Below are positions 338 through 2,126 of a stretch of DNA of 64,000 nt, in pieces. How positions within the stretch are numbered: position 1 is the first letter of the stretch; each line of letters opens with the position of its first letter. The position numbers and the translations under genes are program-made. The notes below the pieces were generated by a model, which did not search any database, was not told the origin of the DNA, and was given only the letters and a program-made list of their open reading frames with translations. Source of the DNA: an uncultured Dongia sp. (lineage in GTDB: Bacteria; Pseudomonadota; Alphaproteobacteria; Dongiales; Dongiaceae); contig NZ_CAKZGO010000004.1 of the NCBI RefSeq assembly GCF_936916975.1, forward strand, positions 248,001-312,000, given 5' to 3'.

Positions 338-622
338 ATGCGCAAAAATCCCTGGTTTCGCGCCAGTTTTGATCTTTTCTCGCTGGGATTGGAAGTTGCC
401 ACCGTGATGACTCTGCGCACCGCCAAAATCGCCTTGGGCGGTGCTGCCGGCGAAACCGAGTCCCGGCGCATGGTCCAGGAGAAGATCGATTCCGCCCTGG
501 ACCTGCAGACCCGGTTCATGACGGGGCAGATGGGCACTGACGGTCCTGCCGCCATGAGCAAGACCGTCACCCATTATCGCCGCAAGGTCCGCGCCAACCG
601 CCGGCGGCTGAGCAAGAGCTAG
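338..622 (+). CDS. Small conserved hypothetical protein, phasin-like in character
   Basis: This 94-residue protein begins MRKNPWFRASFDLFSLGLE and is soluble, helix-prone and basic at the C-terminus (RRKVRANRRRLSKS). I chose the ATG at 338 over an upstream in-frame ATG at 242 because a purine-rich AAGGA lies about 7 bases before it and the MxKNPWF opening looks like a natural start. Alphaproteobacteria carry small proteins of this sort, with a short amphipathic helix followed by a Met/Gln-rich helix; a phasin-like role is only an inference. Its stop codon overlaps that of thrS inside a shared CTAG (619-622), so the two genes are strictly convergent. Confidence 0.65.
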   Translation: MRKNPWFRASFDLFSLGLEVATVMTLRTAKIALGGAAGETESRRMVQEKIDSALDLQTRFMTGQMGTDGPAAMSKTVTHYRRKVRANRRRLSKS

Positions 623-1896: not shown

Positions 1897-1954
1897 GTCA
1901 GTCTCCGTTGGTCTCTCATATGGGCCGAGACGAACGGTGACTTTTCCCCAATGA

Positions 1955-1984
1955 AAAAGCCCCGTCCGGTACCGGCGGGGCTTT
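1955..1984 (-). terminator. Rho-independent terminator/attenuator before thrS
   Basis: On the reverse strand AAAGCCCCG and CGGGGCTTT form a 9-bp stem, extended inside by CCGG-TA-CCGG, and are followed directly by a run of five T. It lies about 60 bases before the thrS start and about 25 bases after the stop of a threonine-rich leader peptide. A strong terminator inside the leader of a synthetase gene is the hallmark of attenuation. Confidence 0.85.
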
Positions 1985-2008
1985 GGGTGGCAGTCAGATC
2001 ACGCAAAC

Positions 2009-2089
2009 TTAACGTGCACCAACACCCCTCGCCCGCCAGGTGGCGGTCCAGGTCGTGGTAACTCGTTGATGTTTGCGCATCTGTGCCAT
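2009..2089 (-). CDS. Threonine-rich leader peptide of thrS (putative)
   Basis: A 26-codon frame from ATG 2089 (or 23 codons from ATG 2080) contains Thr-Thr-Thr-Trp-Thr-Ala-Thr-Trp: five Thr codons within seven (ACC ACG ACC TGG ACC GCC ACC). CCGCC (2046-2042), inside the Thr run, can pair with GGCGG (2037-2033). That same GGCGG can instead pair with CCCGCC in the 5' arm of the terminator (1979-1974). This is the 1:2 / 2:3 / 3:4 arrangement of classical attenuators such as those before trp and thr operons. A ribosome stalled for lack of Thr-tRNA would cover 1 and allow 2:3, so thrS would be read. The sequence arrangement is seen; the mechanism is inferred. Confidence 0.75.
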   Translation of the reverse strand: MAQMRKHQRVTTTWTATWRARGVGAR

Positions 2090-2097
2090 GGCGCGGA

Positions 2098-2126
2098 GAC
2101 TAAGGGTGGAAACGGCAGCGTGTCAA
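2098..2126 (-). promoter_or_regulatory. Probable sigma-70 promoter of the thrS leader
   Basis: On the reverse strand a perfect TTGACA (2126-2121, overlapping the stop of the upstream VOC gene) is followed after 17 bases by TTAGTC. The predicted transcript start, around 2091, is only one or two bases before the ATG at 2089. The leader peptide message would then be leaderless or nearly so, which fits the lack of a clear ribosome site there. The -10 match is weak. Confidence 0.5.

Follow-up and report, generated by a model that had tools for sequence, protein, structure and literature searches.

The leader locus upstream of thrS2

The minus strand of the window (the whole 64,000-nucleotide stretch of DNA that was analysed) carries, at positions 2126-1954 upstream of a short threonyl-tRNA synthetase gene denoted here thrS2, a putative promoter, a 26-residue leader peptide, a hairpin formed by two segments denoted strands 1 and 2 (1:2) and a predicted intrinsic terminator composed of strands 3 and 4 (Table 1). 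A promoter, a Thr-rich peptide, competing strands, a terminator and thrS had been described here in the initial annotation, and all of them are present, base for base and position for position. An alternative second ATG at 2080 would yield a leader peptide of 23 amino acids. The gene located upstream (2123-2590) is on the same strand as thrS2, and its end coincides with the promoter. A simple consensus scan of 1890-2200 for promoters and terminators returned no match, a result that is explained by the weak -10 box and by the T-run being partly paired within the stem; the promoter and terminator calls at this leader are predictions that rest on conservation.

Table 1. Features of the thrS2 leader locus in window coordinates
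Feature	Position	Strand	Remarks
-35 box TTGACA	2121..2126	-	read in the sequence; kept in the relatives G001 and G006
-10 box TTAGTC	2098..2103	-	N17 spacer to the -35 box; conserved in the genus, G006 included
Leader peptide ORF MAQMRKHQRVTTTWTATWRARGVGAR	2009..2089	-	ATG at 2089, TAA at 2009, 26 aa; equivalents precede 24/24 thrS2
Regulatory codons ACC ACG ACC TGG ACC GCC ACC	2039..2059	-	five Thr in seven positions
Strand 1, CCGCC	2042..2046	-	partner of strand 2; compensatory changes in the 1:2 hairpin
Strand 2, GGCGG	2033..2037	-	partner of strand 1 or strand 3; nt 48-52 in 12/12 tabulated thrS2 leaders
Strand 3, 5' arm of the terminator, AAAGCCCCGCCG	1973..1984	-	GCCCCGCCGG invariant in 12 leaders; CCCGCC at 1979-1974
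Strand 4, 3' arm of the terminator and T-run	1954..1968	-	stem 1984-1956, T-run to 1954
thrS2, short threonyl-tRNA synthetase, 425 aa	619..1896	-	start at 1896; TIGR00418 and Pfam domains

Two further observations concern the ends of this transcription unit. A 7-bp inverted repeat (CGGCAGC-N7-GCTGCCG, window 2132-2112) lies over the -35 box; both other species show one mismatch in it, and it could represent either an operator or a chance occurrence. At the opposite end, a convergent plus-strand ORF (326-622) shares four bases with thrS2 (window 619-622), suggesting that thrS2 is probably transcribed as a single gene.

The short threonyl-tRNA synthetase

The thrS2 product is recognized by TIGR00418 with 461.5 bits, against an equivalog cut-off of 383.65 (NCBIfam), and the only Pfam domains found in it are tRNA-synt_2b and HGTP_anticodon, i.e., those for catalysis and anticodon binding; there is neither a TGS nor an editing domain. 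The Cys, His and His zinc ligands are retained together with motif 2 (CHRNEPSG), and given that these ligands and the region of the motif-2 arginine are intact, the protein is predicted to be an active synthetase. It is the second threonyl-tRNA synthetase (ThrRS) of this organism, a fact absent from the initial annotation: a full-length thrS is located elsewhere in the same genome. The latter gene, considered as a further target of a leader, has no Thr leader and was rejected; the full-length thrS genes of the two relatives from the same genus likewise lack one.

A tree of 61 sequences sets the 12 short enzymes that it includes apart from the rest by a branch supported at 100/100. In all 24 short enzymes that we collected, Ser precedes the zinc-ligand Cys, whereas the full-length enzymes with a readable motif have Asn in this position in all but two cases. 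All 24 also contain FYGPK and thus retain Gly463 (E. coli numbering). A drug-resistant ThrRS copy of the ObaO type was ruled out because this glycine is not replaced in any of them, and we accordingly make no claim of drug resistance.

Conservation of the leader among thrS2 genes

A leader with Thr codons (3-10 Thr per peptide) and a terminator with the GCCCCGCCGG stem precede all 24 short thrS2 genes, 20 of which were collected by protein alone, whereas for four the leader was first found by an RNA covariance model. Within the genus, thrS2 is present in three of seven genomes, and the leader in the same three. In the two relatives (G001 and G006), the length and frame of the leader peptide are unchanged and four of the five Thr residues are conserved, as are the promoter, the hairpin and the terminator, with synonymous changes among the codons (e.g., ACG to ACT, GTT to GTA). 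Outside the genus, five short thrS2 genes, each with a Thr-rich leader (e.g., MHRVAHLCTTTTTTTRFGGPDGVVMR and MKHVGRTPLTTTTTRFGGPIGWLVR), were identified in other families by a protein search that covered 385 alphaproteobacterial genomes, and the covariance model, built on eight leaders, found four further thrS2 leaders in the same genomes; the four short genes behind these were also recovered in an independent protein search. Finally, once the pattern had emerged, a test set of 12 thrS2 genes was gathered by protein only. Its members come from two families (f93 and f39), from the order to which G367 belongs and from a further class of the phylum, with three of the 12 outside Alphaproteobacteria; all 12 have both leader and terminator. 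As a control, a small ORF with at least four Thr in seven codons was found before none of the 23 full-length alphaproteobacterial thrS genes. A scan of genome contigs returned full-length thrS only and was used as background.

The terminator could, instead, belong to the upstream gene or be a plain constitutive one, with the Thr-rich ORF being merely a chance frame. The upstream gene indeed has the same orientation and extends as far as the promoter, and stems of the GCCCCGCCGG type occur in partial matches of the RNA model elsewhere in alphaproteobacterial genomes. However, the promoter stands between this gene and the terminator, a Thr peptide is found before each of the 24 thrS2 genes, and in G006, where the upstream gene is different, the promoter, the peptide and the terminator persist, with conservation starting just before the -35 box. 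The conservation and the arrangement in G006 refute this explanation in the main, and we consider it highly improbable. A terminator kept after loss of the Thr codons, which would have argued against attenuation, is not seen in any of the 24 loci.

The Thr codons themselves differ synonymously among lineages, and the peptides share little apart from these codons and the GG that encodes part of the hairpin. An exception is the G217 group (MQSIILTVATIKVTAVGGALGRCA; L127, L174, L175, L177, L178), where the peptide is nearly identical between species, unlike in other thrS2 groups, and has only three or four Thr codons with Ile/Val codons around them. The Trp codons conserved in the peptide of the genus (TTTWT) are not accounted for by Thr sensing and count against it.

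Another possibility is that the peptide arrests the ribosome as a nascent chain in response to a drug or metabolite, as in erm- or tna-like leaders, rather than to the supply of Thr-tRNA. ThrRS is targeted by natural antibiotics, and in an obafluorin producer a second copy of the enzyme confers self-resistance (PMC11252418). Nevertheless, the leaders have little in common other than Thr codons and the GG that codes for the hairpin, which does not fit such a peptide, the known change at the obafluorin/borrelidin target is absent from the 24 ThrRS2, and parallel leaders of asd and dapA (see below) contain the amino acids of their own pathways. We therefore view a drug- or metabolite-sensing arrest peptide as improbable.

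Alternative pairings and folding

The 12 tabulated leaders show a near-constant geometry, with the Thr codons ending, in most, at nt 42-45, followed by GGCGG at 48-52, the stop codon at nt 72-81 and the terminator CCGCCGG at nt 106-116. The leader folds with an energy of -69.2 kcal/mol, compared to -47.5 +/- 4.0 kcal/mol for dinucleotide-preserving shuffles (z -5.5). In the 1:2 hairpin, both partners have changed in a compensatory manner in three of the five pairs, and sliding the partner by 1-3 columns reduces 1:2 pairing from 92.5% to 26-57%; in this count, four members with a 3-base loop and shifted register are scored as unpaired even though a separate hairpin is available to them. The antiterminator (2:3) can form 7-8 bp in each of the 12 leaders, but strands 2 and 3 are nearly invariant, so that it shows no covariation, and covariation supports the 1:2 pairing only. 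An alignment of relatives had been proposed in the initial annotation as a check for a conserved Thr-rich peptide and covarying stems; it bears out the peptide and the first hairpin, whereas the near-invariant strands of the second leave no covariation to score.

In predicted folding, a ribosome placed on codons 11-13 lets the antiterminator form in the transcript before strand 4, and one that has reached the stop codon permits the terminator alone. At equilibrium, the terminator is predicted to be more stable than the antiterminator even when a stalled ribosome is included; a switch of this kind would thus have to be kinetic, i.e., co-transcriptional. Three leaders have a weak U-tract (G308, G217 and G385; CCTTGGTNT).

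A scan of the thrS2 leader against Rfam yielded no family at the gathering threshold, Thr_leader included; with E values up to 10, the sole amino-acid leader was Trp_leader, at 13.3 bits against a cut-off of 41. The T-box covariance model did not match the leader either. In view of these results, the T-box or another known Rfam RNA was rejected as the identity of the leader.

A probable leaderless start

The distance from the -35 box to the ATG is 35-39 nt in 30 of the 31 leaders, and a Shine-Dalgarno-like motif is absent from 30 of the 31. Every tabulated thrS2 leader has TTGACN or TTTACA the same distance upstream of its ATG. With this constant spacing, transcription is predicted to start at the ATG or directly beside it, suggesting that the peptide is probably translated from a leaderless message, in line with what the initial annotation had surmised. 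A precedent is the Sinorhizobium meliloti trp attenuator RNA, which starts with the AUG of trpL (PMC7298713).

The same system raises the possibility that the main product of the locus is the terminated leader RNA or the peptide, acting in trans in the manner of rnTrpL and peTrpL, and that read-through into thrS2 is secondary. A leaderless attenuator RNA that gives rise to both a trans-acting sRNA and a peptide is documented in Alphaproteobacteria (PMC7298713); here, however, the peptide is not conserved beyond its Thr codons, and the leader accompanies thrS2 from one lineage to another. The probability that trans action is the main function appears small.

A proposed mechanism of attenuation

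We consider it very probable that the leader works by ribosome-mediated attenuation of transcription, with the level of charged tRNA-Thr as its signal and the expression of a second, dispensable ThrRS as its output. The logic of the trp and thr operons, which the initial annotation had invoked for this locus, holds up well, given that the terminator and the Thr codons are kept in 24 of 24 homologs and the competing pairings hold across lineages. The elements and how well they are conserved, the bias of the codons and the competing pairings can all be read in the sequences; from these we infer that the ribosome stalls, that transcription reads through, which way the response runs and that the enzyme serves as a backup, as follows.

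RNA polymerase would initiate at the ATG or immediately beside it, giving a leaderless message on which a ribosome loads. When Thr-tRNA-Thr is plentiful, the ribosome would pass the Thr codons and reach the stop, so that 1:2 pairs, the 3:4 terminator forms and thrS2 is off. When Thr-tRNA-Thr is scarce, be it through Thr starvation or because the main ThrRS is inhibited, zinc-starved or limiting, the ribosome would stall on the Thr codons and cover strand 1, whereupon 2:3 would form before strand 4 is made, allowing read-through into thrS2.

The likely use of thrS2 is that of a backup synthetase. An extra ThrRS is of little use against a pure lack of Thr, which makes the physiological trigger uncertain; the backup would help when the main ThrRS is inhibited or limiting.

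Related leaders before other genes

The RNA model also detects the same architecture, with Thr/Lys codons, before asd (14 loci tabulated; four of the proteins were confirmed as Asd). The asd leaders, which are probably translated from leaderless messages, occur in many Alphaproteobacteria (L130, L133, L134, L136, L140, L141, L143, L146, L147, L148, L155, L159, L165, L166). A scan of two of these (L133 and L143) against Rfam matched no family. Lys-codon leaders of the same type are located before dapA (L160, L162, L167 and possibly L149, with three of the proteins confirmed; e.g., MIQARKKLFALKRPPLPGPRDRCAR). For both asd (Thr/Lys) and dapA (Lys), the leader codons match the pathway of the product. 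The recurrence of the design before these genes suggests that much of the control of Thr and Lys in these Alphaproteobacteria is exerted by leaderless attenuators that have no Rfam family. A published member of the asd branch is probably SEP5 of S. meliloti (PMC10117765). This translated small ORF, with six codons for Thr and three for Lys, lies in the 5'-UTR of a gene named there as 'aspartate dehydrogenase' and differs from the thrS2 leader in its target gene.

In one alphaproteobacterial genome (G066, L153), a Thr leader (MRTHPVLRSTATTTTTATGGRWRMRA) precedes a full-length thrS, the sole thrS matched in that genome. In Cupriavidus and a few other betaproteobacteria, a tRNA-Val(GAC) gene is followed by a short Thr-rich ORF (e.g., MVMTPRTTTAGKRQ) and then by full-length thrS, with a strong predicted terminator after the ORF in most cases; this arrangement looks like an independent Thr attenuator. 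Such tRNA-Val/Thr-ORF/thrS loci are L038, L043, L045, L049, L050, L057, L062, L078, L086, L093, L096 and L103.

The RNA model has other matches as well. Three (L132, L138, L139) are associated with non-Thr peptides (e.g., ...NAAMTRSGGP...) and precede DUF1127-like small genes, and three more (L154, L158, L163) are located before genes for ABC-transporter ATPases.

Given that all 24 thrS2 genes are linked to a leader, gene and switch are apparently passed on together. We propose, with confidence evenly divided for and against, that thrS2 and its Thr attenuator constitute a transferable proteobacterial emergency module, in which an editing-less ThrRS stays silent until the cell's own ThrRS fails, through an inhibitor, loss of zinc or damage, with the failure sensed via uncharged tRNA-Thr, and that this module belongs, as a single branch, to a general class of compact leaderless attenuators (thrS2, thrS, asd, dapA) that is largely undescribed. 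The expectation from this proposal is that an editing-free ThrRS would be induced exactly at Thr-tRNA shortage, which bears on tolerance of ThrRS inhibitors and on Ser/Thr mistranslation.

Comparison with known systems

Synthetase genes regulated by leader attenuation are already known, among them hisZ and, in E. coli, pheST, which is preceded by a leader-peptide attenuator. Candidate leader attenuators have been described for trpS2 and leuS in Streptomyces (PMC1262725), His leaders before hisS paralogs in bacilli (PMC2965389), and a leader before trpS in Caulobacter (PMC4117421). The pheST, trpS2/leuS, hisS-paralog and Caulobacter trpS cases resemble the thrS2 locus in that a leader peptide precedes a synthetase gene, several of these genes being paralogs, and has cognate codons where these are described, but they involve other amino acids and lineages. 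The initial view of such regulation as rare or undescribed thus has to be narrowed: attenuation of synthetase genes as such is established, whereas for a Thr leader before thrS or thrS2 we found no description in the open-access literature, our coverage of which is incomplete.

Among attenuators of biosynthetic genes, the trpL-trpE(G) leader of S. meliloti (rnTrpL/peTrpL; PMC7298713) is similar in being an alphaproteobacterial ribosome-mediated attenuator with an AUG-start transcript and a terminator before the structural gene, but it senses Trp, controls biosynthesis and has been shown to have roles in trans. The leader of the E. coli thr operon (thrL; Rfam Thr_leader) shares the Thr-codon peptide, the competing hairpins and the terminator; unlike the thrS2 leader, which has neither a Shine-Dalgarno sequence nor an Rfam leader match, it controls biosynthesis and is found in gammaproteobacteria.

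With respect to function, a comparable gene is thrZ of Bacillus subtilis, which is under T-box control and is induced on tRNA-Thr shortage. The T-box RNA binds tRNA directly, without a translated leader peptide, and the locus described here would be a Gram-negative counterpart of this T-box-controlled spare synthetase gene, in which a translated leader replaces the tRNA-binding RNA. As is the case for thrS2, the product of thrZ is a second threonyl-tRNA synthetase, and thrZ has an attenuating leader (PMC3997798). In Anabaena, the second ThrRS (T2, encoded by a gene also named thrS2) is inducible, defective in editing and serves when the main enzyme fails (PMC4787780); in contrast to the short enzymes analysed here, T2 retains a degenerate editing domain, and its regulator is the zinc repressor Zur rather than a leader peptide.
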